Assembly (NCBI RefSeq): GCF_024323335.1
Contig: NC_066579.1
Coordinates: forward strand, 360,828,397 to 360,892,396
Length of the DNA stretch: 64,000 nucleotides
Reading direction: 5' to 3'
Source: Lathyrus oleraceus
Taxonomy: Eukaryota > Streptophyta > Magnoliopsida > Fabales > Fabaceae
The translations under genes were made by a program, and so were the position numbers. The notes under the pieces are model-generated. The model had not been told where the DNA came from. It saw only the letters and a program-made list of their open reading frames with translations, and did not search any database. Below are positions 6,383 to 59,276 of the stretch, in pieces (position 1 is the stretch's first letter; each line of letters begins with the position of its first letter).

Positions 6383-6407
6383 AAAAAAAAGTATATGAAG
6401 AAAAACA

Positions 6408-10863: not shown

Positions 10864-10876
10864 AAATAGGGGCATC
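10864..10876 (+). other. Polypurine tract of element A
   Basis: AAATAGGGGCATC lies directly before the LTR start TGTAAG at 10877. It matches the equivalent position in element B (AATAGGGGCAGC before TGTAGC). It is the expected plus-strand primer for reverse transcription. Confidence 0.7.
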
Positions 10877-36900: not shown

Positions 36901-39900
36901 TTGATAGATTCTTGTTTGCCATGATTAGATGAACATTTGTGTGCATCCAATTTTAATTTCTGGAGAAAAATTGTGAAACTCAAATTAGGGATGAATGCTA
37001 CAGTAGAAACCCTAGGTTCCCATTGCCTTGCCCAGATTTTCTTTCATTTCACGTGTGCCTGGCCTTGGTTTGTACTGACCAATCAAAACATTTTATTTTC
37101 ATGGCCAAAACGACCGTGTTTAAGTAAGTGGATTCCTATATTACAAAAATGCCATTCTTTCAATATTAATTCAATTAATTTCTTCATTTTTATTTCACTT
37201 TGATATCCAATCTTCCAAAAATCATTGTGCATCCATTTTTGATCAAAAAATCATGGGGTTTTTTGCATTGTCTTCCTCATTACCTCTAGTTTTTTATCAT
37301 TATTTTTCCAGAATTTTTGGATGAGTAATTTTTAAATGGTGCTAGGGTTTGTGACATGTGACCAAATTTTGTACACTTTGTCAAATCGATTGTGAAATGA
37401 TGAGAATACATCCAATGGCTCCCAAATTTTTTGTGCTCAAACTAGACACACTCATGGTGATTTTGGTGTAAAGTTTGTGAATTTATCATTTGTGGTTTGT
37501 GAGTTATGAATTTTTGAATTAGGGTGTGACAATTTGTGTCACACCATTGATGCCCAACTTCATGATTTTCATTACCATGCTTTTTGACCTCCAATTGATC
37601 CGATTTTTTGGCATGAACCTACTCTTGTATGTCTAGTTTACATGTGAATTTTCCTGGAATTATTTGAGGCATTTTCCTAATTGTTTGAGATTTTCTCCCC
37701 TGCTTGGTCAAATATTGACTTTGTGTGACACATGTTCCCATTTCATTTGTGAAATTCTCATACTTTATTGGATGGACATGAAATTTTACATGAGATAACT
37801 AGACATCCTCATCTTTGCCATGGTTTTAGTCCCATTCATTTATCATACACCATTCTTGACTTATGATTTTTCTAAGTTGATGCATGTTTGGTTGACTTCC
37901 TTAAGCATGTTCAAAATTGCTTTGACTTTCTGATTTTCATTGACTACCTTCCACTTGTCCAAATGGGATGAAATTTGACATGCTTACCATGCTATGTGTT
38001 AGGAGTGACCATGATTTATTTGGTGATTTTTGGAAATGTTTTAGTTTACTTTTGATGCAAGTCTTGCTGTTGGCTTCTATGAGCTTCTGTTTGCCATACT
38101 TTGACCTAAATGGTTCATGAAATGATGATAGTGATTGATATGAATGTGCAACCAATTGGGTTTGTTTCTTAAATGTTTGAACTTGATTTTGGATACTCAT
38201 CCTTTGCTGTTTTGACTTTTCCATTCATTTTTGACCCTAGGCTTGTCCTAGTGGTCCTGATACTCACCTTTGAGCTTGTGATTTCAGGTTGACCAACAAA
38301 TGGCCATTAAGACCAATTCTTTTGATTGAGCTTGCTTAAATATCATTGTCTAACTTGTTTGTTTTGTAGGTGGCTTGGCTCACATGTCTTAAGCCTTGTG
38401 CCTTGCACATCCATGTGCCTCTAATTGACTGTTGGTGTCTGTTTCTGTTTGTTTTGTTTGAAGTTGCATACTAACATCTGCTTGACTGTTCCAGGTGCTT
38501 TAGTTGCTTAGTTCCTTGTGAACTTTTTGCTTTGCTTTGCTTGTATAAGCAATTTGCATTGAGGTATAACTTCCTAACTTCATGTAGTCTGGAAGACCTG
38601 GCCTGTTACTTGGCCAGGCAACTGTCTGAAGTCCTCCTTAAGAGGCAATGTTTGTGGATGTTTAACTTTGTCCTTGCATAGAGTCAAAGTCCTCCTAAGT
38701 GAAGAGGCAATTGGTGGAAGGTAGGGATATGCAATCTATCCCCCACTATTCAGTGTGTCATTTGCTTTGCTCACACCACTGTGTTGATGCATTGCAGATA
38801 CAAACCCAAGATCTTGTACAATTGTACAGTTGAGTCAGTTTTAAATGTGTAGAAGGGTTCCCACTTTCTGAACCCACACATTCTTGTCTTGAGCTCTCCC
38901 AGGCCAGGGATAAGAGCTGTGAAGTCTTATCTTCACTCACCTTTCATCTGCTTCACCTTAGTCTCTCAATGGCAAGGTTAAGAGCAACATTCACCCAGTT
39001 CCAGAGGTTTGTTTGTTGAGGTTGATATGACCCCTCGACTAAAACCTAACCCTTGTTTGAGCCACTTGCTTGTGTATAGTGTGTGCTATCTGTGCTTTTA
39101 GGATTGTTTGACTTGCTTCCTGTGCAAGTTAGGATTAGTTTAGACTTGCTTCCTGTGCAAGTAGGTTTTGCTTGGCTTGCTTCCTGTGCAAGTTAAGTGT
39201 GTGTGTGGCTTGCTTCCTGTGCAAGCCATGCTTAGGATAGGCTGGCTCCCTGTGCCAGTTAGCTAGAAACCTTAACTTAGGGATGATTTGCATGATAACA
39301 TCTAGGCTCGAGTCGTAGTCTCCCTAGTTGTGTCTCCCTCTGTTATCTGGTTAGGCTAGTCCTTTATCCCTCTGTAGGGGAACTACATCGCCCTGATCTT
39401 CACACCAGATGAAGTATGTAGGCAGGAGATTGAGCTGATCTCTCCGGGCGCCCTTTTTCTCTTTTTGTGTGTGTTGTCTGACAGTTGCTAGGCTCGAGTG
39501 CCTGACTCCTTAGTAATCTGTTGTCCGTCTGTTTGTGTGTGTGCTTGACAGTTATAGGCTCGAGTCTCCGACTCCCTATTAACCTGTTGTGTTGTTGTGT
39601 GCTTGGAAGCTGATGTAAGTCCATCGAGTGGCATTTGGGTTCCAGTGTGCGTGTGTTTGGTTCGGATGCTGATGTAAGTCCAGTGATTGGCATTCAGGCT
39701 CCATGTTTGCCTCTTTGTGTGTGTTCTGGTTCGGATGCTGATGTAAGTCCAGTGATTGGCATTCAGGCTCCACGTTTGCCTTTGCCTGTGTTTGTTTGTG
39801 TGCGTGTCAGCCGAGCTACGAATGCTCTGATTCTTCTCTCGTCCGAGAAGATACGTATGCATAGGATGCGATATCCTAGCGAGCATGTGTCGTTTCCCCA

Positions 39901-40272
39901 GTCCGAACTACTCCGACTCTGATGTCTATGCCTGATAGACTAAGTAGGCCCAGGATGCGATATCCTGCCGAGTCAGTTTCAGTCAGTTTCTTGTGTCTCT
40001 TTTCAGCCAGTGTGTGTGAGTATTTGAGCAGTGTTTAGCAACCAATATTCCTTCCTTTTGTGCGTGGATCCCGTAGAATACTACGGATGCGTAGGGGTGC
40101 TAATACCTTCCCTTCGCATAACCGACTCCCGAACCCATACTCTTTGGTCGCGAGACCATGTTCTTTCCTAGGTTTACTCTGAGCGTTTCCTTTCCCTCTT
40201 TTGGGATAAATAACGCACGGTGGCGGCTCTGTTGTTCTTGTTTTTCCCGCCGGTTTTTCGCGCGATGCGACA
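33932..40272 (+). repeat. 5' LTR of Ogre element B (6341 bp)
   Basis: Starts TGTAGCACCTCAAATTTG and ends GCGCGATGCGACA. Open frames inside are repeated exactly in the 3' LTR, lack domains and are not genes. The 3' third carries structured repeats: hairpins at 38597-38618 and 38892-38918, five TTCCTGT-loop hairpins (39111-39258), GTAAGTCCA units (39,610-39,780), and U5 stem-loops at 40071-40086 and 40145-40158. The U3/R border could not be fixed, because no convincing TATA box was identified. Confidence 0.95.
39111..39258 (+). repeat. Five stem-loops with loop TTCCTGT in the LTR
   Basis: Hairpins at 39111-39129 and 39144-39162 (ACTTGC/GCAAGT), about 39175-39192 (GCTTGC/GCAAGT, one G-U), 39207-39227 (GGCTTGC/GCAAGCC) and 39242-39258 (CTGGC/GCCAG with loop TCCCTGT). 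The loop is nearly constant while both arms change together. The set is repeated in the 3' LTR at +19,004. Confidence 0.8.
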
Positions 40273-40292: not shown

Positions 40293-41111
40293 CTAGAGAA
40301 GTTGACCTGTGCTGGTCCATCTTCCCTAAGCAAGTCTCTCCTAGCGCTCTCTAGGATTAGGGTTTTGGTTGCTTTCTGCTTGTTGTATTTTATTGCATTC
40401 ATTGTATATATGCACATTTATTGTTTGCATTGATTGTATGCATTGATGTTTGCATTCATATTCATTATTCATTACTGGCTGGCTGTCTGTTTTTCTCTGT
40501 GTGGGGGGGGAGTCAGTTGAGGTAAAAGGTCCAATACCCAGACCATGAGTGAAAATCTAGGATGATTAGGAATAGAGTGATTCATGGGAAGCGGGTGGTA
40601 TGGCGCCACTTAGCGGAACATTGATATCACGAGCAGTTCAGACCCTGGTGGGATACTGTCGTTACATACTTCGGGTGTGTATATGATAGTATTTCTGCGA
40701 AAGGTTATTTATGCTGCGTTTCTCTTCGACTTTACCCTGGCCTAGACGACACCCGTGAGTGGGGAGGGAATGATCATTATTACAGGTACAGTTGGTGACT
40801 TGTTGGTGACTTGTGATCCTGTTGGTGACTATTGGTTCAGAATTTTGGGGTCTCAGATGACTTTGGGTTTCAGATGAATTTGTGGTTCCGAGTTCAAGCC
40901 GAAGCTTTGATCCTGTGTTCTGAGAGACACAGCCAACCAGTCCAGTCTGCATCATGTGCATCATAGCATATTTATTTTTCAAAAGAAACGCATTGAAAAA
41001 AAAAAAATAAAAAAAAAATCATCAAAAAAGAAAAAGAGAAAAAAGAAAAAAACTAATCTCTGCATGCATATCATCTCTCAGGTACATTCCAGAGTCTGTC
41101 TACTGATAGAG
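40293..41111 (+). other. 5' leader of element B
   Basis: Non-coding sequence between PBS and ORF1. It includes GCATTGAT-rich text, a run of G at 40,503-40,510 and an A-rich tract (40,997-41,050) just before ORF1. The ORF1 reading frame is open back to about 40,956, but that extension is Lys-rich translation of the A tract and is not taken as coding. Confidence 0.7.
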
Positions 41112-42752
41112 ATGACAACAGTTCCCGAGCCGAAGCGGAAAACCTGTTCCTACAGTTTCCACCGTGAGCCGTTGACTCCGCTAGTTGAGTTGGGTAGCCT
41201 CGTGATAGATGACCGACTGAAGAGTTTTGTTGGGCGGTACGGAGATATCTTGACAGTATTGAAGACAGTAGTTGACCCGGTGCCTCTGCAGACACTACTT
41301 CAGTTTTATGACCCAGAGCTCAGGTGCTTTACTTTCCAGGATTATCAGCTTGCACCCACTCTCGAAGAGTATTCTATCCTATTGAGTATCCCTATTCAGC
41401 ATCAGACTCCCTTCTTGGACGTCCCAAAGGAGGTCGACTTCAGATTGATTGCCAGAGCTCTCCGGTTGAGTGTTGAGGAAGTTGGTGAGAATTGGAAGCC
41501 CTGTGGAGAGGTTGTAGGTCTGCCATTGAAGTTCCTGTTGAGAGTAGCCAGAGTTGAAGCAGAAAAGGGGAATTGGGAAGTTTTTCACGCGCAGCTAGCT
41601 GCCATGATCTATGGGGTCATCCTATTTCCCAATATGCCAAATTTCATTGACTTCACTGCTATCAGCATTTTCATCAGAGGGAATCCAATCCCTACTCTTC
41701 TAGCAGATACTTACTATGCCATTCACAGCAGGCATGGTAAGGGAGGAGCCATCAGGTGCTGCCTGCCTCTTCTGTTCAAATGGTTCATGTCTCTTCTGCC
41801 AGCCAGTGGACCATTTGTGGATACCCAGAGCACTCTGAAGTGGACTCAGAGGGTCATGTCGCTCACTTCCTATGACATCAGGTGGCAGTCGTACCGGATG
41901 GATGTGAAGGATGTCATCATAAGTTGTGGTGAATTCCGGAGCGTGCCACTCATAGGGACCAAAGGTTGCATCAACTACAATCCAGTTCTTTCTCTTCGCC
42001 AGCTAGGGTTTGTTATGAGTGAAAGACCGCTCGAAGCTGAGATGGCCGAAAGTTTTTGTTTTGAGAAGAAGGATGACCCTGCTAAGTTGGAGCAGATAGG
42101 GAAAGCCTGGAGAGATGTGGGAGTGAAGGATGGATCCGTCTTAGGGAAGAAGTTTGCCATTGCAATGCCCGATTACACCGATTGGGTAAAGAAGAGAGTG
42201 GAAACTTTGCTGCTACCCTATGATAGGATGGAGCCGTTGCAAGAGCAACCACCTTTGGTCCTTGCTGATAGTGTGCCTGCAGAGCACTACAAGCAAGCCT
42301 TGATGGAGAATCGCCGTTTGAGAGAGAAGGAGCAAGATACCCAGATGGAGCTGTACAAAGCTAAAGCTGATAAGCTGCACTTGGCCCATCAACTCAGGGA
42401 AGTGCAAGGAGAGGATGCTAGCAGAGCAAGGAACAAGAAGAGATCCTACGAGGAGATGGAGAGCATGTTAGACGCAGAACATCGGGAGCGCTTGAGGCTG
42501 CAGAGGGTTGAGGCCAGCTATCAGAAGAAGATCAGAGACTTGGAGAAGCAACTCAGAGATAAAGACATCCAGTTGAAGAAGGAAGTAGACTTGAGACAGG
42601 CATCAGAGAACCACCTTGGAGGAGAAGTGGTAGAGCTTAGACGGCAGTTGAAGGAGAAGATTACCCCTCTACCAGAATGTTCAGAATGCACACTGTTGAT
42701 AGACCAGTGCCATTACCTGAAGACCCTCATTCCGGAAGACCGTCTGTCTTAG
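41112..42752 (+). CDS. Ogre ORF1 protein (546 aa), plant-mobile-domain-like with coiled coil
   Basis: I chose ATG 41112 (MTTVPEPKRK) because upstream codons are an A-tract translation. Residues of about 35-330 contain LLQFYDPELRCFTFQDYQL then APTLEEYSILLSIPI, a layout resembling the plant mobile domain found in host MAIN/MAIL proteins and several retrotransposons. Residues of about 390-516 are charged heptad-rich sequence (LREKEQDTQMELYKAKADKL and later RDLEKQLRDKDIQLKKEVD), expected to form a coiled coil. The C terminus has CSECTLLIDQCHYLKTL. An extra ORF upstream of gag is a hallmark of Ogre. Its function is unknown. It is absent from element A because that copy is truncated. Confidence 0.85.
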   Translation: MTTVPEPKRKTCSYSFHREPLTPLVELGSLVIDDRLKSFVGRYGDILTVLKTVVDPVPLQTLLQFYDPELRCFTFQDYQLAPTLEEYSILLSIPIQHQTPFLDVPKEVDFRLIARALRLSVEEVGENWKPCGEVVGLPLKFLLRVARVEAEKGNWEVFHAQLAAMIYGVILFPNMPNFIDFTAISIFIRGNPIPTLLADTYYAIHSRHGKGGAIRCCLPLLFKWFMSLLPASGPFVDTQSTLKWTQRVMSLTSYDIRWQSYRMDVKDVIISCGEFRSVPLIGTKGCINYNPVLSLRQLGFVMSERPLEAEMAESFCFEKKDDPAKLEQIGKAWRDVGVKDGSVLGKKFAIAMPDYTDWVKKRVETLLLPYDRMEPLQEQPPLVLADSVPAEHYKQALMENRRLREKEQDTQMELYKAKADKLHLAHQLREVQGEDASRARNKKRSYEEMESMLDAEHRERLRLQRVEASYQKKIRDLEKQLRDKDIQLKKEVDLRQASENHLGGEVVELRRQLKEKITPLPECSECTLLIDQCHYLKTLIPEDRLS

Positions 42753-43208: not shown

Positions 43209-46200
43209 ATGGATCAATTTCAAGCTGAGTTGGCTGAGATGAAGGCTAGCATGGCCCAGTTTATGAATATGATGCAAGGGGTTGCGCAAGGTCAAGAAGA
43301 ACTCCGAGCCATGGTTCAGAGACAAGAGGCTGCAAATCCACCGGTCAACCATGCTCCGCCAGAGGGAGGCCCGGTTAATGATAACAATGCTGCTGCTGTA
43401 CCCATCAACAACTATGTTGTAGGTGATGAGTTGGGGGGTATTCGAATCAACGGTCAACCTATTGTTCCAGATGCCGCTAATGCCAGAGTAGTCCGTGCTC
43501 CGGCCCGTAATCCTGTTCCGATTGTTGACAGACAAGAGGATATGTTCTCTCTACTCAGTGAAGACGAAGACGCTCTGGGAAGGGTTAATGAGAGAGACCG
43601 TAAAGTTGAGGCTCTTGCTGAGAAGATCCGTGCTATGGAAAGTCAAAATTCTCTCGGTTTTGATGTTACTAATATGGGATTGGTTGAAGGTTTGAGAATC
43701 CCTCACAAGTTCAAAGCACCGTCCTTTGACAAATACAACGGTACTTCTTGCCCTCGCACCCATGTGCAGGCTTATTATCGAAAGATCTCCGCGTATACCG
43801 ATGATGAAAAGATGTGGATGTATTTTTTCCAAGATAGTCTATCTGGGGCTTCTTTGGACTGGTACATGGAATTGAAGAGAGATTCTATCCGCTGTTGGAG
43901 GGATCTGGGTGAGGCCTTTTTGAGGCAATACAAACACAACATGGACATGGCACCGAGCCGGACTCAGCTGCAGAGTCTTTGTCAGAAATCCAATGAAAGC
44001 TTCAAGGAGTATGCCCAGAGGTGGCGTGAACTAGCTGCTAGAGTTCAACCCCCTATGCTGGAGAGGGAGTTGACAGACATGTTTATCGGTACTCTTCAAG
44101 GTGTGTTTATGGACCGGATGGGGAGCTGCCCATTCGGTAGTTTTTCTGATGTTGTCATTTGTGGAGAGAGGACTGAGAGTTTGATCAAAACTGGGAAGAT
44201 TCAAGATGCTGGCTCCTCTTCTTCTAAGAAGCCGTTTGTTGGGGCACCTCGTCGAAGGGAGGGTGAAACTAATGCTGTTCAACACCGCAGAGATCAGAAT
44301 AGAAGTGAATACCGTCAAGCTGCTGCAGTAACCATTCCGACACCTCAACCTCGTCAGCAACAACAACAAAGAGTTCAACAACCGCAACAACAACAACAAC
44401 AACAGCAACGTCCTTTCCAGCCTAGGCAGAGATTACAGGCTGATAGAAGATTTGATCCTCTGCCTATGTCTTACGCAGAGCTACTACCCGAACTACTCCG
44501 GTTAGGGTTTGTAGAGTTGCGTACGATGGCCACTCCAACAGTGCTGCCTCCTGGCTATGATGCTAATGTTAGATGTGACTTTCACTCTGGGGCACCAGGG
44601 CATCATACTGAGAAGTGTCGGGCTCTCCAGCACAAGGTTCAAGATTTGATCGATGCCAAGGCAATCAACTTCGCTCCAGTGCCTAACGTTGTGAACAACC
44701 CTATGCCTCAGCATGGTGGGCACAGAGTGAACAATATTGAAGGGAAAGAAGCTGAAGATCTGGTTGTTAATGTTGATGATGTTCAAACTTCTCTGTTAGT
44801 TGTGAAGGGCCGTCTGCTGAATGGGGGTGTCTACCCGGGCTGTAATGAGGATTGTTTGGGCTGTGCAGAATCTGAGAATGGCTGCGACCGGTTAAGGGCC
44901 GGTATCCAGGGTATGATGGATGAGGGTGGTTTGCAATTCAGTAGGGCTGTAAAAGATCGTGGAACAGTGTCAACTATCACCATTTACTTTAAACCGTCTG
45001 AAGAACGTGGACAAAGGGTCGTTAGTGCACCTGCAACGAATGGTACCCCAGTTACCATTCCCGTTCCAGTAACCATCAGTGCTCCGACTACTATCGTTGC
45101 GTCTGGAAGAAGGGTTGTTGAGAATAGTAGGGTCGTGCCGTGGAAGTATGATAATGCTCACCGCAGTTACAGAAGGGCTGAGAGTCAGACAAGACCAGTG
45201 AATCAAACTCCAGTGACAATTGGTTTGCCGACTAGAGTTCCTGCAACTGTTGGTCCGGCTGTGGATAATGTAGGGGGTCCAGGAGGTTTTACCAGAAGCG
45301 GTCGTCTGTTCGCACCGCAGCCTTTGAGGGACAATAATGCTGAGGCTCTCGCCAGAGCAAAGGGTAAGCAAGTTGTGGTTGAGGAAGAGCCTGTCCAGAA
45401 GGAAGCGCCTGAGGGGTCATTTGAGAAGGACGTGGAGGAGTTTATGAAGATAATCAAGAAGAGTGACTACAAGATTGTAGATCAGTTGAATCAAACTCCG
45501 TCCAAGATTTCTATACTTTCACTTTTGTTGTGCTCTGAGGCACACCGTAATGCCTTGCTGAAGATGTTGAATCTGGCTTACGTACCTCAAGAGATTTCTG
45601 TCAATCAACTGGAGGGTGTGATGGCCAATGTGAGCACCAGACATGGTGTAGGTTTCACCAACCTGGACTTACCGCCTGAAGGGCGAAACCATAACAAAGC
45701 CTTGCACATCACCATGGAGTGCAAGGGGGCAGTATTGTCTCACGTATTGGTAGACACCGGGTCGTCGTTGAATGTGCTGCCTAAGCAGATTCTGAAGAAG
45801 ATTGATGCGGAAGGGTCTGTGCTTAATCCCAGTGACCTGATCGTTCGTGCTTTCGACGGATCCAAACGTTCTGTGTGTGGAGAAGTTACCTTGCCTGTGA
45901 AGATAGGTCCTGAGGTATTCGATATCATCTTCTATGTTATGGACATCCAGCCCGCCTATAGTTGTTTATTGGGGCGTCCATGGATTCATGCAGCAGGGGC
46001 AGTCTCGTCGACTCTCCATCAAAAGCTCAAGTATGTCTGGAATGGCCAGATTGTGACTGTGTGCGGTGAAGAAGAGATCCTGGTGAGTCATCTATCCTCG
46101 TTCAAATATGTTGAGGTGGATGGCGAGATCCACGAAACCTTATGCCAGGCGTTTGAGACTGTGGCTCTTGAGAAAGTGGCGTACGCTGAGCAGAGGAAGC

Positions 46201-46528
46201 CAGGTGCTTCAATTACTTCTTACAAGCAGGCTAAAGAGGTTGTTGATTCTGGCAAAGCTGAAGGCTGGGGCAAGATGGTGGATTTGCCTGTCAAAGAAGA
46301 CAAATTTGGTGTTGGTTATGAGCCTCTCCGAGCAGAGCAGAATGGTCAAGCGGGTCCGAGTACTTTTACCAGCGCTGGGCTGATGAATCATGGCGACGTC
46401 TCCGCAACCGGTATTGAAGACTGTGACAGCGATTGTGATTTGGACAACTGGGTTCGCCCGTGTGCACCAGGGGGGTCTATCAACAACTGGACGGCTGAAG
46501 AAGTGGTTCAAGTTACTCTTCTGACAGA
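43209..46528 (+). CDS. Ogre gag-protease (1107 aa unspliced), first exon of gag-pol
   Basis: Starts MDQFQAELAEMKASMAQF with an N-terminal helical stretch. The retrotransposon gag core lies at residues of about 202-330 (MWMYFFQDSLSGASLDWY, then LGEAFLRQYKHNMDMAPSR). A Gln-rich linker follows (about 383-402). A zinc-knuckle-like CDFHSGAPGHHTEKC is at 456-470 and a second Cys cluster is near 560. The aspartic protease has VDTGSSLNVLP with catalytic Asp849, then SCLLGRPWIHAAGAV. The unspliced frame stops at TAA 46530-46532, which lies inside the intron donor. Unspliced RNA would give gag-pro alone; spliced RNA gives gag-pol. No internal damage was seen. Confidence 0.93.
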
Positions 46529-46784
46529 GTAATTTTCTGTTGTTTTGTCATTTTGCATGAAAATCCTACGTTCTGCCCAAGGCGTAGTGATTCATTTTTG
46601 TAGGGCCTCATCATGTTTTAATGATTATCATTAATGAAGGACATTTTTTGAAATCAAACTTTGTGATCCCTGTCTTTCTATTTTTGTTTTCATTTTTCTT
46701 TTTCAAAACGATAAAATGGCAATGTTTTTTTGTTTTTGTGACTTCTTGAACTCTTTTTCTAAAAACAAAGCATTAAACATGCAG
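46529..46784 (+). other. Ogre intron between protease and RT (element B)
   Basis: Donor GTAATTTTC at 46529 and acceptor AACATGCAG ending at 46784, 256 nt and T-rich. The upstream exon ends with GA, the first base after the intron (A) completes a Glu codon, and the following codon at 46786 is in the pol frame (SDLMAF). Splicing thus removes the gag-pro stop and fuses the two ORFs. Element A preserves the same arrangement. Confidence 0.85.
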
Positions 46785-49700
46785 AAGCGATCTTATGGCA
46801 TTCACTATGAACAGTTCTGTTATGGCTCAGTATGATTTCGACAATCCCATCTACCAAGCTGAAGAGGAGAGTGAGGAAGACTGTGAACTCCCTGCAGAAT
46901 TGGTCAGATTACTGAAGCAGGAGGAAAGGGTCATCCAACCTCATCAGGAGGAGTTGGAGGTTATTAATTTGGGTACTGAGGACGCCAAAAGAGAAATCAA
47001 GATTGGGGCTGCTTTAGAGGACTCTGTCAAGAGGAGGCTGATCGAGATGCTGAGAGAATATGTGGAAATATTCGCCTGGTCATATCAAGATATGCCTGGT
47101 TTAGATACGGACATTGTGGTGCATCGATTACCTCTTAGAGAAGGATGTCCTTCGGTCAAGCAGAAGCTTCGTAGAACGAGTCCTGACATGGCAACTAAGA
47201 TCAAGGAAGAGGTTCAGAAGCAGTGGGATGCGGGTTTTCTGGCTGTTACAAGTTATCCACCGTGGGTGGCCAACATCGTTCCTGTGCCGAAGAAGGATGG
47301 AAAAGTCAGAATGTGTGTCGATTACCGGGATTTGAATAGAGCGAGTCCGAAAGATGATTTCCCATTACCTCACATTGATGTATTGGTTGATAATACGGCT
47401 CAATCCTCGGTATTCTCTTTCATGGATGGTTTCTCCGGATATAATCAGATCAAGATGGCACCGGAAGACATGGAAAAGACAACATTCATTACACCCTGGG
47501 GCACGTTCTGCTATAAAGTGATGCCATTTGGGCTAAAGAATGCTGGTGCTACCTATCAGAGGGCAATGACGACTCTCTTCCATGACATGATGCACAAAGA
47601 GATTGAAGTGTACGTAGATGATATGATTGCGAAGTCGCAGACAGAAGAGGAGCACCTGGTTAACTTGCAGAAGCTGTTTGACCGGTTGAGAAAGTTCAAG
47701 CTGAGGTTGAATCCGAACAAGTGTACGTTTGGGGTGAGGTCCGGGAAGCTCTTAGGCTTCATTGTCAGTGAGAAAGGGATTGAGGTTGATCCAGCTAAAG
47801 TCAAAGCTATTCAAGAGATGCCTGAACCGAAAACGGAGAAGCAAGTCCGTGGGTTTTTAGGGAGGTTGAACTACATTGCAAGGTTCATATCTCATCTAAC
47901 TGCTACATGTGAACCAATCTTCAAACTGCTTAGAAAGAATCAAGCGATCAAGTGGAATGATGATTGTCAGAAAGCTTTTGATAAGATAAAGGAGTATTTA
48001 CAGAAACCTCCAATCCTGATACCTCCAGTTCCAGGGAGACCTCTGATAATGTACCTGTCAGTGACTGAGAACTCGATGGGGTGTGTATTGGGACAGCATG
48101 ACGAGTCTGGTCGAAAAGAGCATGCCATATACTACCTTAGCAAAAAGTTTACCGACTGTGAAACAAGATATTCACTGCTCGAGAAAACTTGCTGTGCTTT
48201 GGCCTGGGCTGCTCGCCGACTGAGACAGTATATGTTGAACCATACTACCTTATTGATTTCTAAGATGGATCCAGTGAAGTACATCTTTGAGAAACCGGCT
48301 CTCACCGGACGCGTTGCTCGTTGGCAGATGATTCTAACAGAATATGATATTCAGTACACGTCACAAAAGGCCATCAAAGGTAGTATTCTGTCAGACTACC
48401 TCGCCGAACAACCGATTGAAGATTATCAGCCTATGATGTTTGAATTCCCTGACGAAGACATCATGTATCTGAAGATGAAAGATTGTGAAGAGCCTCTTGT
48501 CGAGGAAGGACCGGACCCGGATGACAAATGGACACTGATGTTTGATGGGGCTGTGAATATGAACGGTAATGGTGTTGGGGCAGTATTGATCAATCCTAAA
48601 GGTGCTCATATACCTTTTTCTGCCAGATTGACGTTTGACGTCACCAACAACGAAGCTGAGTATGAGGCTTGTATCATGGGGATAGAAGAAGCCATTGATC
48701 TGAGGATCAAAACACTTGACATATTTGGAGATTCAGCTCTAGTGGTCAATCAAGTCAATGGAGATTGGAATACGAATCAGCCGCATTTGATTCCGTATAG
48801 AGATTACACCAGAAGAATACTGACGTTCTTCAAGAAGGTGAAGTTGTATCATGTCCCCCGGGATGAGAATCAAATGGCTGATGCCTTGGCTACTTTGTCG
48901 TCTATGATCAAAGTTCATTGGTGGAATCATGTGCCACATGTTGCGGTGAATCGACTTGAGAGGCCTGCGTATGTGTTTGCAGCCGAGTCTGTTGTGATTG
49001 ATGAGAAGCCGTGGTATTATGACATCAAGAATTTCCTCAAGACTCAGGAGTATCCTGAAGGTGCGTCGAAGAATGACAAGAAAACCCTGAGGAGGCTAGC
49101 TGGAAGCTTCTACTTGAATCAGGATGATGTATTGTATAAGAGAAACTTTGACATGGTCTTGCTCAGATGCGTGGACAGACCCGAGGCAGACATGTTAATG
49201 CAGGAAGTTCATGAAGGTTCCTTCGGTACTCATGCCGGCGGACATGCAATGGCTAAGAAATTGTTGAGAGCGGGTTATTACTGGATGACCATGGAATCCG
49301 ATTGTTTCAAGTATGCTCGGAAGTGCCATAAGTGTCAAATCTATGCTGATAAGGTGCATGTACCACCAAGCCCTCTGAATGTCATGAATTCGCCTTGGCC
49401 GTTTGCCATGTGGGGCATTGATATGATTGGGAAGATTGAGCCTACTGCTTCTAATGGACATCGCTTCATCTTGGTTGCGATCGATTACTTTACCAAGTGG
49501 GTGGAAGCGGCTTCCTATGCTAACGTTACCAAACAAGTGGTTACCCGGTTCATCAAGAAAGAAATCATCTGTCGTTATGGAGTTCCTGAGAGAATCATCA
49601 CTGACAACGGTTCGAATCTCAACAACAAGATGATGAAAGAGCTTTGTAAAGATTTCAAGATTGAACATCACAATTCTTCTCCTTACAGACCGAAGATGAA

Positions 49701-50262
49701 CGGTGCTGTAGAAGCAGCGAACAAGAATATCAAGAAGATTGTGCAGAAGATGGTCGTTACGTACAAGGATTGGCATGAGATGCTGCCTTTCGCTTTGCAT
49801 GGGTACCGTACCTCAGTACGTACGTCGACCGGGGCAACCCCTTACTCCCTTGTGTATGGTATGGAAGCGGTCCTACCTGTTGAAGTGGAGATTCCTTCTC
49901 TGAGAGTTTTATTGGATGTCAAGTTGGACGAAGCCGAGTGGATTCGAACAAGGTTTAACGAGTTGAGCCTTATCGAGGAGAGACGGCTAGCAGCTGTATG
50001 CCATGGACAGTTGTATCAGCGAAGGATGAAGCGAGCCTTTGATCAGAAAGTGCGTCCTCGAAGCTATCAGATCGGTGATCTAGTTTTGAAAAGGATCCTC
50101 CCTCCCGGTGCAGATAACAGGGGCAAATGGACTCCTAATTATGAAGGTCCGTATGTTGTGAATAAGGTCTTCTCCGGTGGAGCCTTGATGCTTACAACTA
50201 TGGACGGTGAAGATTTTCCGTCTCCTGTCAATTCAGATGTAGTCAAAAAATACTTCGCATAA
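46785..50262 (+). CDS. Ogre pol: RT, dual RNase H and integrase (about 1159 aa as exon 2)
   Basis: The open frame from ATG 46795 is 1155 residues; splicing adds four before it. Numbering from ATG: RT at about 121-310 with VDYRDLNRASPKDDFPLPH and YVDD at 273-276; gypsy RNase H at about 416-530 (YYLSKKFTDCETRYSLLEK); archaeal-type RNase H at about 578-705 (MFDGAVNMNGNG, Asp584, and HVPRDENQMADAL). The integrase has its zinc finger from His806 with CHKC, then catalytic Asp876 (WGIDMIG), Asp937 (TDNGSN) and Glu973 (NGAVEAANKN). The last two are separated by 35 residues, the expected DD35E. The dual RNase H is typical of the Tat/Ogre lineage. All residues are intact, with no chromodomain. Confidence 0.95.
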
Positions 50263-50271
50263 ATTGACCCG

Positions 50272-50480
50272 CTGGACAAAAAGAAAAAAGAGTCCAGGCA
50301 AAAATGGGCATCCTGGTGAACCAAAAAACAGAAAGAAAAGGTTCGGGCAAAAATTAGGGATAAAATGAAAAGAATTCGTACACCCGGTAAGTCGAAAACC
50401 CGCAAGGGCGGCTTAGGCAAAAATGGGTATCCCGGTGGATTGAAAACCCGAAAAGGGCGATCCAGGCAAAAGTTAGGGAT
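50272..50480 (+). other. Post-pol stem-loop modules ending in GGCAAAAAT (element B)
   Basis: Four modules begin 10 bp after the pol stop. Stems: CTGGAC (50272-50277)/GTCCAG (50292-50297); GAACC (50318-50322)/GGTTC (50340-50344); TAAGTC/GGCTTA enclosing CCC-GCAA-GGG (50399-50408); GGATTG/CGATCC enclosing CCC-GAAAA-GGG (50447-50457). Each is followed within a few bases by GGCAAAAAT or a close variant. Stem sequences differ between modules and from element A while pairing is kept, and two loops are GNRA type. Confidence 0.65.
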
Positions 50481-51758
50481 TAAAGCGAAGACTACAGTCT
50501 GAGTTATCTGTACTTCATCAAGCTTTGTCGTCTGCCATCTCGAAAGATGTGATCCGTCCAGTTATTCTTCTCAGAAAGCAAGGAGTTGGGAGGAAAACTG
50601 ATGATCTGTGAGTTATAACAGAATGGGGAAATAGTGGATGCCGTGTTCACGTTGCCATTAGGATAGATTTTTCCTTTTGTGCGCAATTACCTCTTTCTAG
50701 GAATTGCTTCCCAATGTATTTGCCTCTTCAGGCACATTTTCAATCAATAGAAATCATTATTCAGATAAATAGCTTTTGTTTTTATTTTTACTGTTTTGTT
50801 TGCAAAAATGTCCGAATTTTTGATAAGCATTGCATATAAGAACATGAAGGCTAAACAATAGCTTGCAGGATGACAAAACATTTGAAAATCATTTTGAATG
50901 TTGAGAACACTTGAGCGTGTCTTGTCCATGTATCCCCTGGGGGCATTGTGTTGTGCTATTTTTCAGATTGACATCTGTGAGGACGTTTCCTCAGCAGATA
51001 TTTTCCCCAAGCAAGTTTGGAAGCTATTAGAGCCATGTTTCCCTGCAAAGACGTCTGTGGATAGTGCCTTCTATTCCCCAACAGATCTAAGGATTGCCTA
51101 TCCCCAGCAGGCCTGTATTTGCCAATCTCTTCCCCGAGTGAGGCAGGTTCATTAAATTTATCTCCAGCATTTATCCTATCTGTGGACTGAAGGGTATCCC
51201 CAGCGGAGTTTACTTTTCCCCAGCAGCAGTGCTATTCTTCAACATGAGTGTGAAGTCGCTTTACCATTCCTCAAGCAGAGTTCCCCGCAGAGTATTTCCC
51301 CAAGAGAAGTCTCCCCACAGAGTCAGAGTATCTGATCATTTCGGCTCCCTAGCCAGGGTTCATTTGCATTTCGCATGTAGTAATCATTGCATCCTCAAAA
51401 ATCGCGTAGCATTCCCATTCATAAATGGAGCATTACGCCATAGAAAAATTCAAACATATGCATTCATGTGTTAACCTCACCAGACCGTATCCCCGGCAGA
51501 GGCGGATTATTTCATTCAACATCAGCACCAAGTCTGCTACAGTTGCTTCGACAGCATTCAGAATTGATTATCCCCACAGAGGTTTATTTCCTCACCCGAT
51601 GGTGACAGAGGTTTATTTCCTCACCCGATGGTGACAGAAGTTTGTTTCTCCCCAGTGAGACCCTCCAGCAAGTGATCAGCCTTGCCTTGACATATCTCAG
51701 ATGTCGTTCTTGTGATACCAGTAAGTGTCATGTCAGCACCCGCGTATGTTTCTTTGTT
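50481..51758 (+). other. 3' non-coding region of element B, first part
   Basis: No gene. The first 450 bp are unremarkable and AT-rich. From about 50,930 there are many irregular copies of a TCCCCAGCRGAGT-like motif (for example 51,193, 51,216, 51,282-51,318 and 51,490), as in element A. Short open frames here translate these repeats. Confidence 0.6.
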
Positions 51759-52801
51759 TGGTGTCGGTCAACACCATAGTTTCGGTGTCTGTAAACATCG
51801 AGTATTCTCCCCAGTCATCAGTAAATGTCTGGTCATCATTTTTGGTGTCGGTAAACACCATTGTTTCGGTGTCTGTAAACATCGGGTATTCTCTCCAGTC
51901 ATCAGTAAATGTCTGGTCATCATTTTTGGTGTCGGTAAACACCATTGTTTCGGTGTCTGTAAACATCGAGTATTCTCTCCAGTCATCAGTAAATGTCTGG
52001 TCATCATTTTTGGTGTCGGTAAACACCATTGTTTCGGTGTCTGTAAACATCGAGTATTCTCTCCAGTCATCGGTAAATGTCTGGTCATTTTTTGGTGTTT
52101 GTAAACACCATTGCTTCGGTGTCGGTAAACATCGAGTCTCACCCCAGTCATCGGTAAATGTCTGGTCATTTCTTTTGATGTCGGTAAACATCATCTTTCG
52201 ATGTCGGTAAACATCGAGTCTCATCCCAGTCATCGGTAAATGTCTGGTCATGCCTTGTTTCCTTGTTAACAAAATCAAGATCCCCAGAAGTCGTCGGTAA
52301 ACGTCTTGTCTGATTACACCACAAAGATTTTGTTCCTCCCCAAGCGGAGACGCCATCGGTAAATGGCCCCGTATGCTTCGATATCGGTAAATATTGAATG
52401 CCCAGTTTTATCCGCCATCGGTAAATGGCCCCGCTTTCTTCGATATCGGTAAATATCGAATTCCCAGTTGCAGCAGCCATCGGTAAATGGTCTTGCTAAG
52501 TTGACATCGGTAAATGTCAAGTTTCTTTGAAGCCACCATCGGTAAATGGCCTTGCTTCCTTTCTACATCAAATCTGTTTCCCAGCAGCCATCGGTAAATG
52601 GTCTGGCTGAAGTTGATATCGGTAAATATCAAGTTCTAACCATCGGTAAATGGTTTTGCTTTTCAGAAGTTTGTTTTCCCCAGCCGCCATCGGTAAATGG
52701 TCTTGCTGAAGTTGATATCGGTAAATATCAAGTTTCTAACCATCGGTAAATGGTTTCGCCTTTCTGAAGTTGTCAATTGCAGTCGTCATCGGTAAATGAC
52801 G
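51759..52801 (+). repeat. Array of about 25 mini-hairpins with constant CGGTAA loop
   Basis: 51,760-52,250 is a tandem repeat of 84 bp (unit marks at 51813, 51897, 51981 and 52065, then 81-82 bp), each unit with three hairpins. From 52,290 hairpins continue without fixed period. Examples: TGGTGT/ACACCA 51843-51860, TGATGT/ACATCA 52176-52193, CGATGT/ACATCG 52199-52216, GCCAT/ATGGC 52352-52367, TTCGATAT/ATATCGAA 52439-52460, TTGACAT/ATGTCAA 52501-52520, AACCAT/ATGGTT 52638-52655, CGTCAT/ATGACG 52784-52801. The loop is CGGTAA in most, CAGTAA or CTGTAA in some. The long open frames on both strands are translations of this array. Confidence 0.88.
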
Positions 52802-52922
52802 TGGTTCTCCTTGTATCATATCCAGTACTGTGCAAATTCTACGGTTCTTTGGTATTCAATCCCTGTTTACCCTGAAAGTCTGACAGCCGTTGCTATCATC
52901 CGTTCGGGTTCCCAGCTGATTG

Positions 52923-52934
52923 AATAGGGGCAGC
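52923..52934 (+). other. Polypurine tract of element B
   Basis: AATAGGGGCAGC directly precedes the 3' LTR start TGTAGC. It corresponds to AAATAGGGGCATC in element A. Confidence 0.75.
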
Positions 52935-55900
52935 TGTAGCACCTCAAATTTGCACCTATCATTGTACATACATTTTCATATTAGGTCATAGCATATCATG
53001 GTCCATTGCATAGCATTGCATTGCCTCTTTTGCCTCAAGTGCAAGCCAATCAAGAAATTAGGTCAAACTAATCAGGAGATCAGTCAGACAAACAAGCAAG
53101 TGTGTTTTTCATTGAGCCAAGGCCTTAGGGTTTTTCCAACAAGTTCACATGACTTGGAGGTCTATTTGAAGTGTTCATGTCAAGGGTTGAAGGCTCAGAG
53201 GTCATCAGTTCATATACAGACAGTCAAAAGTCAAAAAAAAAGTCAACTGTCAGTCAAAGCAGTGGATGGTGGCCATTCTTGTGGAATTTGGACACCATGC
53301 TCATTAATCAAGAGTTCATACAACTTGGGACATCATTTGAAGTCAAATTCTCAAGGAATTAGGGTTTGGAATTCATCAGAAGATGCACAGTCAGTCAAAA
53401 ACCCCAAAAGTCAACTGTTGGTCAACTGTCCATTTAATCAGTGATTTGATGATGGAAATTGGTTTGTGAGAGCTCATTCATGGCCAAATAGCCTTCATAT
53501 ATCATGTCAAACACCATCATGGAAGAATTTGAAGCCAGATCAAAAATTTCCAAAAATGGAAACTGGACCTGTAACTGAAACTTACCAAAAATGGAAAGTC
53601 TTGATCCTCAAACTTACATCATGATACAAGCTTCAAATGAATTTTTGCCCAACATGAAAGTTGAAGATCTTGTTCTCCCATTTCCAAAAAGTCCAAGAAC
53701 TTTTAATTCCCATGTGTGGTTGGCAAGTTATGATCGAATCGACTTCAGAAATTCTTGAACTTCAAAAGGCCATATCTCTCAAACCGTTTGGCCAATTTTG
53801 GTGGGGTTTTTTCCTACAAGTCACATTTGATCCCCTCTTTCCAAAAATATAAATTTCATGAGCCAAAACTTCACCAATCAAAATGGCATTTTTTGACTTG
53901 TCTCATTTAAATTCAAGTGTGGACCAAAGTTTGACTTTTTGAATTAGTGATTTTTAAACCATTTGGCCAATTGGGAATTGTTTAGAATATTATTTGCAGC
54001 ATGCTCAAATTCCCTTTTGTGCAGTACATGGAGCCCATGCTAGTTTGCTTGATTTTTGGAAAGAAAGTACAAGTTTCACCAAACCACATCCCATAAGCCA
54101 TGCTTTTACCACAAAGGCAGCAGAATTGTCCATGATTTTCTGTCATGAGAAGTCAGTAATAGCAGCCATTTGACAGCAGAAGAAGCATGGTCCACTCTCT
54201 CAAAAAACTCACCTTGCTGTTACATTTCAAAGAGCTGTCAAAAGAATTTCAAAAGAAAAAAAAACTGGCCATGCTTGGTACTGCACATAGCAGTCTTGTT
54301 CATTTTTTGTCATACTACAAACTCTTGGCAAGACATGACAAACATATAGAATTTCATTCATGCTGAAAAAACCACTTTGGCCATATTCTTCTAAAACCTG
54401 TCAAACTCCAAACCAAGAGACATTCAACAGCAGGAGAACAAAAGCTGGCTTGGCTTGAGGCAATATGTCCCAGCATTTTCTGTCATAGCAGACACACAAA
54501 CCAACATAACAAACACAAAGTCATGGCTCATTCATCCTAGAAAAAACTGTATTGACTTTGCTTTGGCACTTTTAGAATTTTCTGTCTAAACTTCCAACAA
54601 AACCTGATCTTTTGCATTGTGAGAAGTCTGTCCAAAAACCTAGCCTGGCCCTGCTTGACACAATATCCAAACCTCATTTTTCTGTCATGAAAAAACCCTA
54701 CTAGCAGACCAACCAATTTCAACTGATGCAAAAACTGATTTGCTTGGCATTTTGTCAAGATTGCAAGTGCTGTTTAAAACCACCAGCAACTTCAAAACAG
54801 CAGACTTCCTCCATCATTTTTCCTGTCATGGCATTGCACACAAAACCACCCTCATTCATCTTCTAAAAACCTTGCTTGGCATTTGTCTAAAGTCTGTCGA
54901 GACTCCCACAGTGAAAAGCATAACCTAGCCAACATAACACAACCAACTCACTCATTCTCTCTCATTTGGCAAGATGGCAAAATTCTATCAAAAATAGAAG
55001 TAACCTAGCAGCAAACTTCACTTCATTTTTCTGTCAAAAAATGAACAAGTAGCAGCCAAACCAGCAAAAAGCCTTGGTGCCCTCTCTCTCAAAAGATCAC
55101 ATTTTGGCCAAGATCATTTTCTGTCCAAAGAATCTCCAAAGGAACAAATGCCTGGCCCTGCTTGACACAATATCCAAACCTCATCTGCTGTCATAAAAAA
55201 CCAGCAAAAGATCCTCTAATCTCATTTTTCACATTTCATTCAAAAAGCCACAAAATAGCCAAAACATGACAGCTCTTGTTCTAAGCACTTGTTGATCAAA
55301 AGGGCATTGCAAACACATCTCAAATATCACATAGCAAGTGTCCAAAGCCTCAAAACCTGCAGAAAACATCAAGAACTCAAAATCACTTTTCAACTTGTCA
55401 CATTGTATCAAATTTGCATTTTCAAAGCCACTTTCACTCTCAGGCCATTCCAAGCTTAGCAAATTAGTTTGTCATGATCCATAGGGTATATTGAAGCTGT
55501 CTCAAACCTCCATTGCTCACTGTTTGAAAATCAAAAACATCACCTTTCTCAAAATCAAGCAACAACCAGTTCAGTGGCCATCTTCATTTCCAGCTTGATT
55601 CAAGTTCAAGTAAGGTGTCAAACAGCTTGCCTTGGACCCTTTGAAGCTATTTGGATACCTGTCAAGCATTGAAAGCATCTCCAGCATCACATTCAACATT
55701 GCCCTGTTCAGTTTGGTAAATTTTCGAGCTCCATTATTCTTCAAATTACTATATGCTTTGGATAGGTCCTTTTATGCTGAGCATCATGATGTTTTTATTT
55801 TTGAAAATGGCTGTGTGTTCATGAAGTTATGTTGAAAACAAGTTTGATGATGATTTATGTTTGTGCTCGATTCATGATACATACAAGGTTTTAATGAAAA

Positions 55901-58900
55901 TGGTTGATAGATTCTTGTTTGCCATGATTAGATGAACATTTGTGTGCATCCAATTTTAATTTCTGGAGAAAAATTGTGAAACTCAAATTAGGGATGAATG
56001 CTACAGTAGAAACCCTAGGTTCCCATTGCCTTGCCCAGATTTTCTTTCATTTCACGTGTGCCTGGCCTTGGTTTGTACTGACCAATCAAAACATTTTATT
56101 TTCATGGCCAAAACGACCGTGTTTAAGTAAGTGGATTCCTATATTACAAAAATGCCATTCTTTCAATATTAATTCAATTAATTTCTTCATTTTTATTTCA
56201 CTTTGATATCCAATCTTCCAAAAATCATTGTGCATCCATTTTTGATCCAAAAATCATGGGGTTTTTTGCATTGTCTTCCTCATTACCTCTAGTTTTTTTA
56301 TCATTATTTTTCCAGAATTTTTGCATGAGTAATTTTTAAATGGTGCTAGGGTTTGTGACATGTGACCAAATTTTGTACACTTTGTCAAATCGATTGTGAA
56401 ATGATGAGAATACATCCAATGGCTCCCAAATTTTTTGTGCTCAAACTAGACACACTCATGGTGATTTTGGTGTAAAGTTTGTGAATTTATCATTTGTGGT
56501 TTGTGAGTTATGAATTTTTGAATTAGGGTGTGACAATTTGTGTCACACCATTGATGCCCAACTTCATGATTTTCATTACCATGCTTTTTGACCTCCAATT
56601 GATCCGATTTTTTGGCATGAACCTACTCTTGTATGTCTAGTTTACATGTGAATTTTCCTGGAATTATTTGAGGCATTTTCCTAATTGTTTGAGATTTTCT
56701 CCCCTGCTTGGTCAAATATTGACTTTGTGTGACACATGTTCCCATTTCATTTGTGAAATTCTCATACTTTATTGGATGGACATGAAATTTTACATGAGAT
56801 AACTAGACATCCTCATCTTTGCCATGGTTTTAGTCCCATTCATTTATCATACACCATTCTTGACTTATGATTTTTCTAAGTTGATGCATGTTTGGTTGAC
56901 TTCCTTAAGCATGTTCAAAATTGCTTTGACTTTCTGATTTTCATTGACTACCTTCCACTTGTCCAAATGGGATGAAATTTGACATGCTTACCATGCTATG
57001 TGTTAGGAGTGACCATGATTTATTTGGTGATTTTTGGAAATGTTTTAGTTTACTTTTGATGCAAGTCTTGCTGTTGGCTTCTATGAGCTTCTGTTTGCCA
57101 TACTTTGACCTAAATGGTTCATGAAATGATGATAGTGATTGATATGAATGTGCAACCAATTGGGTTTGTTTCTTAAATGTTTGAACTTGATTTTGGATAC
57201 TCATCCTTTGCTGTTTTGACTTTTCCATTCATTTTTGACCCTAGGCTTGTCCTAGTGGTCCTGATACTCACCTTTGAGCTTGTGATTTCAGGTTGACCAA
57301 CAAATGGCCATTAAGACCAATTCTTTTGATTGAGCTTGCTTAAATATCATTGTCTAACTTGTTTGTTTTGTAGGTGGCTTGGCTCACATGTCTTAAGCCT
57401 TGTGCCTTGCACATCCATGTGCCTCTAATTGACTGTTGGTGTCTGTTTCTGTTTGTTTTGTTTGAAGTTGCATACTAACATCTGCTTGACTGTTCCAGGT
57501 GCTTTAGCTGCTTAGTTCCTTGTGAACTTTTTGCTTTGCTTTGCTTGTATAAGCAATTTGCATTGAGGTATAACTTCCTAACTTCATGTAGTCTGGAAGA
57601 CCTGGCCTGTTACTTGGCCAGGCAACTGTCTGAAGTCCTCCTTAAGAGGCAATGTTTGTGGATGTTTAACTTTGTCCTTGCATAGAGTCAAAGTCCTCCT
57701 AAGTGAAGAGGCAATTGGTGGAAGGTAGGGATATGCAATCTATCCCCCACTATTCAGTGTGTCATTTGCTTTGCTCACACCACTGTGTTGATGCATTGCA
57801 GATACAAACCCAAGATCTTGTACAATTGTACAGTTGAGTCAGTTTTAAATGTGTAGAAGGGTTCCCACTTTCTGAACCCACACATTCTTGTCTTGAGCTC
57901 TCCCAGGCCAGGGATAAGAGCTGTGAAGTCTTATCTTCACTCACCTTTCATCTGCTTCACCTTAGTCTCTCAATGGCAAGGTTAAGAGCAACATTCACCC
58001 AGTTCCAGAGGTTTGTTTGTTGAGGTTGATATGACCCCTCGACTAAAACCTAACCCTTGTTTGAGCCACTTGCTTGTGTATAGTGTGTGCTATCTGTGCT
58101 TTTAGGATTGTTTGACTTGCTTCCTGTGCAAGTTAGGATTAGTTTAGACTTGCTTCCTGTGCAAGTAGGTTTTGCTTGGCTTGCTTCCTGTGCAAGTTAA
58201 GTGTGTGTGTGGCTTGCTTCCTGTGCAAGCCATGCTTAGGATAGGCTGGCTCCCTGTGCCAGTTAGCTAGAAACCTTAACTTAGGGATGATTTGCATGAT
58301 AACATCTAGGCTCGAGTCGTAGTCTCCCTAGTTGTGTCTCCCTCTGTTATCTGGTTAGGCTAGTCCTTTATCCCTCTGTAGGGGAACTACATCGCCCTGA
58401 TCTTCACACCAGATGAAGTATGTAGGTAGGAGATTGAGCTGATCTCTCCGGGCGCCCTTTTTCTCTTTTTGTGTGTGTTGTCTGACAGTTGCTAGGCTCG
58501 AGTGCCTGACTCCTTAGTAATCTGTTGTCCGTCTGTTTGTGTGTGTGCTTGACAGTTATAGGCTCGAGTCTCCGACTCCCTATTAACCTGTTGTGTTGTT
58601 GTGTGCTTGGAAGCTGATGTAAGTCCATCGAGTGGCATTTGGGTTCCAGTGTGCGTGTGTTTGGTTCGGATGCTGATGTAAGTCCAGTGATTGGCATTCA
58701 GGCTCCATGTTTGCCTCTTTGTGTGTGTTCTGGTTCGGATGCTGATGTAAGTCCAGTGATTGGCATTCAGGCTCCACGTTTGCCTTTGCCTGTGTTTGTT
58801 TGTGTGCGTGTCAGCCGAGCTACGAATGCTCTGATTCTTCTCTCGTCCGAGAAGATACGTATGCATAGGATGCGATATCCTAGCGAGCATGTGTCGTTTC

Positions 58901-59276
58901 CCCAGTCCGAACTACTTCGACTCTGATGTCTATGCCTGATAGACTAAGTAGGCCCAGGATGCGATATCCTGCCGAGTCAGTTTCAGTCAGTTTCTTGTGT
59001 CTCTTTTCAGCCAGTGTGTGTGAGTATTTGAGCAGTGTTTAGCAACCAATATTCCTTCCTTTTGTGCGTGGATCCCGTAGAATACTACGGATGCGTAGGG
59101 GTGCTAATACCTTCCCTTCGCATAACCGACTCCCGAACCCATACTCTTTGGTCGCGAGACCATGTTCTTTCCTAGGTTTACTCTGAGCGTTTCCTTTCCC
59201 TCTTTTGGGATAAATAACGCACGGTGGCGGCTCTGTTGTTCTTGTTTTTCCCGCCGGTTTTTCGCGCGATGCGACA
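52935..59276 (+). repeat. 3' LTR of Ogre element B (6342 bp)
   Basis: Same as the 5' LTR except 12 substitutions and one extra T in a run near 56,290, by visual comparison. Differences include 33955 A / 52958 G and 40-kb-end C/T changes near 39,406 and 39,911 of the 5' copy. It ends GCGCGATGCGACA and is followed by AAGAT. Confidence 0.95.

Follow-up and report, generated by a model that had tools for sequence, protein, structure and literature searches.

Why does a plant retrotransposon carry, in the last kilobase 5' of its polypurine tract, 33 small hairpins that share one loop and differ in their stems? The question is raised by a stretch of 64,000 nucleotides (the window) from Lathyrus oleraceus, located on contig 1 of an assembly of 3.795 Gb in 1,550 contigs that was searched for related copies. 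The window contains a young Ogre-like element on the plus strand (33932-59276), whose 5' LTR (33932..40272) pairs with the 3' LTR (52935..59276) at 99.8% identity. Between the LTRs lie, on the same strand, ORF1 of 598 aa with DUF7745 (40956..42752; Pfam, E 9.7e-116), a gag-pro ORF with a Pfam match to Retrotrans_gag (43209..46532), a pol ORF encoding RT, RNase H and integrase (46795..50262; Pfam order RVT_1, RT_RNaseH, RVT_3, Integrase_H2C2, rve), and the 3' region from pol to the 3' LTR (50263..52934). The protease part of the gag-pro ORF gave no Pfam match, and the protease was placed there on our assumption that the usual Ogre organisation holds. The Ogre intron, expected between protease and RT, would fall between the end of the gag-pro ORF at 46532 and the opening of the pol ORF at 46795. 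A second RNase H is a mark of Tat. The giant size of the element with LTRs of 6.3 kb each, the extra ORF1 located 5' of gag, and the order gag, RT, RNase H, integrase with a second RNase H agree with Ogre (Ty3/gypsy, Tat). The sequence TGGCGACTCCACTGGGGA stands 3' of the 5' LTR and is, by its position, a putative primer-binding site; the Ogre primer-binding site is reported to be complementary to tRNA-Arg (available text of PMC2206039). The polypurine-tract/3'-LTR junction AATAGGGGCAGCTGTA is at 52923..52938 (+), and the junction sequence AATAGGGGCANCTGTA has 55,432 matches in the genome against 0 for a reversed control.

An older, diverged Ogre-like element is present in the same window, with pol at 3125-6383 (72.7% DNA identity to the young pol), a hairpin-rich 3' region at 6384..10876 (+) in which the loops CAGTAACC, CCGTATTC and TTCTGACGGTA recur, and a 3' LTR beginning at ~10877. 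Just 3' of pol, both elements have a short repeated motif (AACCCGAAAGGGC-like, GGCAAAAA), and the two motif stretches (50385-50479 and 6416-6505) show 81% identity. The word TCCCCAG recurs in both 3' regions (51000-51750 and 6600-10800), with 11 occurrences counted in 6384-10876 and those of the young element noted by eye. Outside both elements, self-inverted repeats at 22899-23023 and 28054-28163 have 95% and 79% identity to their own reverse complement and are perhaps MITE-like.

The array of the young element occupies 51757..52801 (+) and consists of 33 hairpin units in 24 distinct 22-nt forms, spaced mostly at ~24-34 nt. A first, sequence-only reading had described about 25 hairpins with a constant CGGTAA loop. 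The constant-loop array is real, and its loop is CNGTAA, not strictly CGGTAA: the loop is CGGTAA in 24 units, CTGTAA in four, CAGTAA in three, CGGTCA in one and TTGTAA in one, that is, CNGTAA in 31/33, the other two differing by one base. The stems listed in that reading are correct, and additional units have G.U or T.T. The first half (51757..52251, +) is built of an 84-bp block present six times, each copy holding three hairpins, mainly TGGTGT/ACACCA, CGGTGT/ACATCG (with G.U) and CCAGTCAT/ATGTCTGG (with a T.T mismatch). A 23-bp tandem pair at 52171..52215 (+) places TGATGT/ACATCA next to CGATGT/ACATCG, a compensatory T-A/C-G difference. The second half (52351..52801, +) comprises 62- and 99-bp blocks with the stems GCCAT, TTCGATAT, TTGACAT, TTGATAT, AACCAT and CGTCAT. 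The 84-, 62- and 99-bp blocks each duplicate 2-3 hairpins.

Units were searched with the pattern T-[C/T]NGT[A/C]A-A with complementary flanks, which predetermines the closing T-A as well as some of the loop bases, and the constancy of the loop is therefore judged by loop-blind searches. Such a search of 51757-52934 found 15 perfect stems of at least six pairs, and 13 of the 15 carry the array hexaloop. At least five contiguous pairs (G.U counted) are present in 25/33 units; in the remaining eight, seven are interrupted by one T.T at position 4 with pairs resuming outside, and the last has four pairs. A chance origin of the hairpins is ruled out by shuffles, as 51757-52801 has 14 stems of at least six pairs against 1.48 +- 1.26 in 40 dinucleotide shuffles. 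The same count gives 8 against 6.2 shuffled in gag and 7 against 7.3 in pol. Over the whole window, CGGTAA is observed 40 times against 9.6 expected. A coding role was also considered and rejected: the ORFs of the array (161 aa on the plus strand, 207 aa on the minus strand) track the 84-bp period and matched no Pfam family, and the units occupy all three frames in the eight metagenome proteins described below. An Rfam search of the window at the gathering threshold gave 0 matches. Reading the loop as a U1/5'-splice-site or Pumilio motif (GUAAA, UGUAAA) suits only some loop variants and is not favoured.

Covariation of the stems, the central element of the sequence-only reading, was tested over positions 2-7 against shuffle and slide controls and is confirmed. 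The covariation score is 0.622, compared with 0.283 +- 0.033 in shuffled sets (0/500 as high) and 0.076-0.208 with one arm slid. Paired cells, both-side-changed cells and the covariation score all lie above 500/500 shuffles. No excess was found in the number of pairs with a both-side change (7; 170/500 shuffles as high) or of further pair types (17; 415/500 as high). In the 24 distinct units, all pairs but the closing T-A show both-side changes in some units. Duplication followed by random mutation would leave the arms no better paired than arms exchanged between units. Among the 16 distinct 6-nt arm pairs, 69/80 positions are Watson-Crick, against 37.8 +- 4.8 after re-pairing, with 0/20,000 re-pairings as good, and the covariation claim thus withstands this comparison.

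Similar arrays were found when other copies were searched. A two-loop pattern gave 52,391 matches genome-wide against 5 for a reversed control; the genome (3.8 Gb) carries tens of thousands of such units, and the genome-wide hits listed are spread over seven contigs. The comparison set comprises 31 arrays with 760 units, the window array included. It contains 16 further arrays from the two-loop matches (L131 was dropped from 17, being contained in L154), two arrays among 40 polypurine-tract-anchored copies with the same junction, and 12 arrays picked among 100 of 1,174 matches to an anchor 3' of the array; anchored copies holding 1-4 units only are outside the set. Each array has 4-42 units, with a median spacing of 30 nt across the 31 arrays, and the segment from pol to the 3' LTR shares with the Ogre 3'-UTR repeats a tandem organisation that varies between copies. 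In a loop-blind search of 19 arrays, CNGTAA accounts for 220/249 of the hexaloops on six-pair stems with no more than one G.U. Among the first 43 same-junction copies on contig 1, five have at least seven CNGTAA units 5' of the junction (L151 and L154 among the 40 fetched, and L129, L130 and L134 counted separately), so the wider family can do without this particular array. Where it is absent, either other loops must fill its role or the role itself is dispensable. In L165, L172 and L175, the last 130 nt 5' of the polypurine tract resemble array-bearing copies by eye, and sense CNGTAA units are absent from the 3 kb 5' of the junction, a pattern that looks like module exchange.

Eight metagenome proteins found with array-derived queries contain 90 usable units, of which 42 are distinct; 10/100 motif hits were excluded as unable to encode the loop. 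The codons of these units permit Watson-Crick pairing at 156/168 arm positions; re-pairing them in frame lowers the figure to 119 +- 5. Searches with pol patterns in viral and genome contig collections gave no further copies. At least 120 stretches matching the two-loop pattern in viral contigs were taken as chance.

The copies allow variants that were passed on to be compared with those confined to a single array. A stem type was defined by its 6-nt arms and called inherited when present in at least three arrays (29 types) or private when present in one (57 types), a threshold set after viewing the data, and the threshold of at least two arrays was also computed. Types in several arrays would have been passed on by active copies, and single-array types would mostly represent later decay. 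At positions 2-5, 96% of the positions are paired in types of at least three arrays (111/116) and 72% in private types (165/228; Fisher p 4.7e-8). The inherited states (n=116) are 103 Watson-Crick, 8 G.U, 0 A.C and 5 other, and the private states (n=228) are 142, 23, 17 and 46, respectively; types of at least two arrays (n=148) have 127, 11, 3 and 7. The G.U:A.C ratio of inherited types at the three-array threshold is 8:0 at positions 2-5 (p 0.038). The difference is not significant with position 6 included (11:5 vs 24:27, p 0.16) or at the two-array threshold (11:3 vs 23:17, p 0.21). In the 29 shared types, 119/145 pairs at positions 2-6 are Watson-Crick, against 69.5 +- 6.2 re-paired (0/5,000).

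The loop was examined in the same manner, with the second loop base, which varies in inherited and private forms, excluded from the test. Private one-step mutations number 27.5 on 7 loop sites and 46 on 10 arm sites, which is about equal per site, and the loop is therefore no mutational cold spot. Inherited one-step differences, on the other hand, number 1 in the loop and 25 in the arms (p 0.0008). Most loop changes are not passed on; the loop variant CGATAA is inherited and occurs in up to six arrays. The covarying stems, the seldom inherited loop changes and the contrast between inherited and private types together support the earlier suggestion of selection for structure over mere duplication.

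The path of stem change can be followed among the 29 inherited types, which form 25 neighbour pairs with one change per arm. Both partners of one pair are altered in 16/25, and 11 of these 16 changes lead from Watson-Crick to Watson-Crick. The G.U intermediate is present at positions 3, 4 and 5 in 8, 6 and 8 arrays, and the A.C intermediate in 0, 1 and 2, respectively, whereas positions 2 and 6 are reversed, with A.C or C.A intermediates outnumbering G.U (31 arrays). Genome-wide, position 4 has 12,917 G.U vs 103 A.C (125:1) and position 3 has 1,151 vs 61 (19:1), intermediates being counted at these two pairs only, which were picked where G.U already led. These counts represent copies multiplied from few ancestors and not independent events, and they show which intermediates were inherited. 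As the stem is palindromic, neutral strand-symmetric mutation should yield both intermediates equally; a sense-strand G.U reads as A.C in the antisense strand, and the constraint thus acts on the sense RNA. Selection on a sense-strand RNA hairpin is, in our assessment, highly probable.

Predicted folding does not single out the same strand. In eight of the 31 arrays (last 900 nt, span limit 150 nt; 187 units), the predicted mean unit-pair probability is 0.55 for sense and 0.64 for antisense, and 58% of sense and 70% of antisense units have a predicted pair probability >0.5. Compared with shuffles, the first half folds with z -6.3 in sense and -9.2 in antisense, and the second half with z -0.55 in sense (no stabler than shuffles) and -3.64 in antisense. 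On these predictions, thermodynamics by itself would not pick out the sense strand.

Complementary arms can also arise without any function, if one arm serves as the template for the other when the polymerase switches strands in reverse transcription or DNA synthesis. Such template switching has been documented, and RNA hairpins can be both formed and kept by it (available text of PMC8794818 and PMC8604942), and the region is full of tandem duplicates. Its reported traces are homogenised arms and inverted spacers (PMC8604942, in the text available), with loop inversions very rare in rRNA data (PMC8794818, likewise). In the 31 arrays, the mismatches have not been erased between arms: a T.T (U.U) mismatch at position 4 is kept in 30/31 and one G.U type in 25/31. 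Spacer inversion, the known by-product, is nearly absent, with one inverted unit beside 760 forward, an argument that is weak alone since such inversions are rare in rRNA too. Moreover, neutral homogenisation leaves the rarely inherited loop changes and both genome-wide G.U/A.C ratios unexplained, and we regard it as improbable. The rewriting of one arm from the other, which the sequence-only reading had offered as a possible cause, is thus set aside as the main one; template switching may help to create new stems, but it does not look like the maintaining force. Tandem duplication of a few ancestral hairpins with loop-centred gene conversion, and without selection on pairing, has the 84-, 62- and 99-bp blocks in its favor, which are recent duplicates, and a stem such as TGATGT/ACATCA could combine the inside of CGATGT/ACATCG with the outside of TGGTGT/ACACCA. 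It is nevertheless very hard to credit, as the source of many different complementary stems stays unexplained, its prediction of arms no better than re-paired ones is rejected, and it supplies no cause for the inequality of G.U and A.C.

The remaining alternatives accept a functional hairpin and differ in the molecule or the role. Action as DNA (cruciforms, single-stranded cDNA) or through antisense RNA would be consistent with the somewhat better predicted antisense folding. However, pairing in DNA offers no reason why one strand should favour G.T over A.C, and in antisense RNA the preference should be reversed. In the genome-wide counts of two pairs, sense G.U is far ahead, though in the 31 arrays positions 2 and 6 lean otherwise; this possibility appears very unlikely. 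An RNA structure selected for nuclear export or 3'-end processing, and not for packaging, overlaps with the explanation preferred here and is the second-choice function, though a rather doubtful one. The array lies directly 5' of the 3' LTR, and the constitutive transport element of simple retroviruses is located before the 3' LTR; against this, the number of site copies in known transport elements is small. An intron in Ogre RNA, stated for soybean Ogre (available text of PMC3305785), is also in line with a need for export.

Analogues with other loops occur in other copies and in the LTR, and they are weaker and thinner than the main case. In the 3 kb 5' of 60 polypurine-tract junctions, with simple repeats and low-complexity arms removed, hairpins exceed 100/100 shuffles in 12/40 same-junction, 8/16 T-junction and 1/4 A-junction copies. 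First-pass hairpin z values of ~20 in L177 and L184 came from (AT)n microsatellites and were discarded. Control pieces of the window have z >2 in 2/17, one LTR segment seen twice. In the T- and A-junction copies (20) and the older element, stems of at least five pairs (best register) are present at 26/158 CNGTAA sites, compared with 2.1% of 8,400 randomly chosen positions. There, the predominant form is TACC-CAGTAACC-GGTA with the outer pairs T-A, C-G and A-T and the inner variant ATGCC/GGCAT, and CAGTAA loops sit on other stems in copies whose LTR junction differs. Among 18 distinct arm pairs, 33/54 positions pair at positions 3-5, against 19.5 +- 3.0 re-paired (0/2,000), in a sample of 56 sites preselected for two inner pairs that leaves out 102/158 sites.

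The older 3' region (6384-10876) contains 55 hairpins against 34.3 shuffled, with 0/100 shuffles having as many. In its sub-region 8440-10260, chosen after viewing the data, recurring loops on changing stems are seen in CTACC-CCGTATTC-GGTAG, AATTGC-CGTATGCTA-GCAATT and a 12-bp stem around ATTCTGACGGTA. The 5' LTR of the young element has a tandem mini-array at 39104..39262 (+), also present in the 3' LTR at 58102-58266, with the heptaloop TTCCTGT (once TCCCTGT). The stems ACTTGC, CTTGC and TGGCTTGC are on TTCCTGT, and CTGGC is on TCCCTGT. The 5' LTR also contains TAGGAT-gcgat-ATCCTA (39862) and CAGGAT-gcgat-ATCCTG (39951).

On balance, the array is probably a selected sense-strand RNA cis-element of the 3' untranslated region whose loop is read by a protein, with Gag as the leading candidate. 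Each unit would fold into a short stem, its U-A closing pair topped by the hexaloop CNGUAA. Selection on active copies would preserve the loop sequence and the pairing, and not the stem sequence, so that stems could drift through compensatory steps, passing through G.U in mid-stem. Blocks of 2-3 hairpins would multiply by unequal exchange or strand transfer. In the simplest reading, the identical loops would offer a single RNA-binding protein the same site many times over, and it is fairly likely that the loop is a protein site of this kind. A dimerisation signal, also suggested earlier, would involve loop-loop dimerisation between copies, and the lack of self-complementarity in the loop argues against it. 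Gag may be the reader, a tentative assignment, and could package or condense the ~25-kb genome through the array; a nuclear-export factor is the second candidate. Gag is placed ahead because the array lies close to that end of the genomic RNA at which, once the first strand transfer has taken place, synthesis of the minus strand goes on, and because an RNA of 25 kb would presumably gain from many contact points. More speculatively, each subfamily might show its own loop word as an address label (CNGUAA closed by U-A; CAGUAACC; UUCCUGU in the LTR), read by its own Gag or another protein of the element, a proposal that we hold to be doubtful.

That the 3' UTR of Ogre/Tat LTR retrotransposons holds hypervariable tandem repeats was reportedly described by Macas et al. 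in 2009. The Ogre/Tat 3'-UTR repeats have the same site, tandem blocks, variable copy number and a role as satellite source, and the constant loop and covarying stems are not described in the available text of these reports (PMC7004042, PMC3305785). The terms hairpin, palindrom* and secondary structure occur 0 times in the main text of PMC7004042. A search covering titles, abstract openings and few subscription papers found no description of a constant-loop, covarying-stem array in Ogre or other LTR retrotransposons. The tandem repeats in Ogre 3' regions are thus already known, and the design of the hairpins is apparently new.

The closest parallels come from other systems. RNA viruses and hepatitis B virus are reported to have multiple dispersed packaging stem-loops with a common loop motif (PMC7612645, PMC7793301 and PMC3593212). 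The Ogre array likewise has many stem-loops with one loop motif on differing stems, as seen in the loop-blind counts, the covariation and the loop constraint. In contrast, the viral signals are dispersed over the genome, as far as these sources describe them, and the Ogre hairpins are packed in one 1-kb tandem array at ~30-nt spacing. Hairpin maintenance by template switching (PMC8794818, in the text available) explains compensatory change. It leaves the retained mismatches, the sense-biased wobble and the loop constraint unexplained. Iron-responsive elements of the transferrin-receptor mRNA are present in five copies, with the loop CAGUGN and a bulge in the lower stem. They resemble the array in that several hairpins of a 3' UTR combine an unchanging hexaloop with stems that differ, which is a likeness only, with no relation claimed.

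Ogre elements are reported to make up 20-33% of the pea genome (PMC2206039), and their 3' repeats to seed satellite DNA (PMC7004042), in the text available from both sources; the literature on these repeats, to the same extent, gives them no known function. If the array consists of selected RNA hairpins, it would provide a concrete, testable cis-element for the RNA of a plant retrotransposon. It would also be a natural experiment on compensatory evolution, with tens of thousands of units, both inherited and decaying, in one genome. If the loop words did act as address labels, label and reader would co-evolve, and each of the giant retrotransposons sharing a cell would package its own RNA. In that case, the hypervariable 3' region would be a modular, exchangeable packaging domain and not junk.
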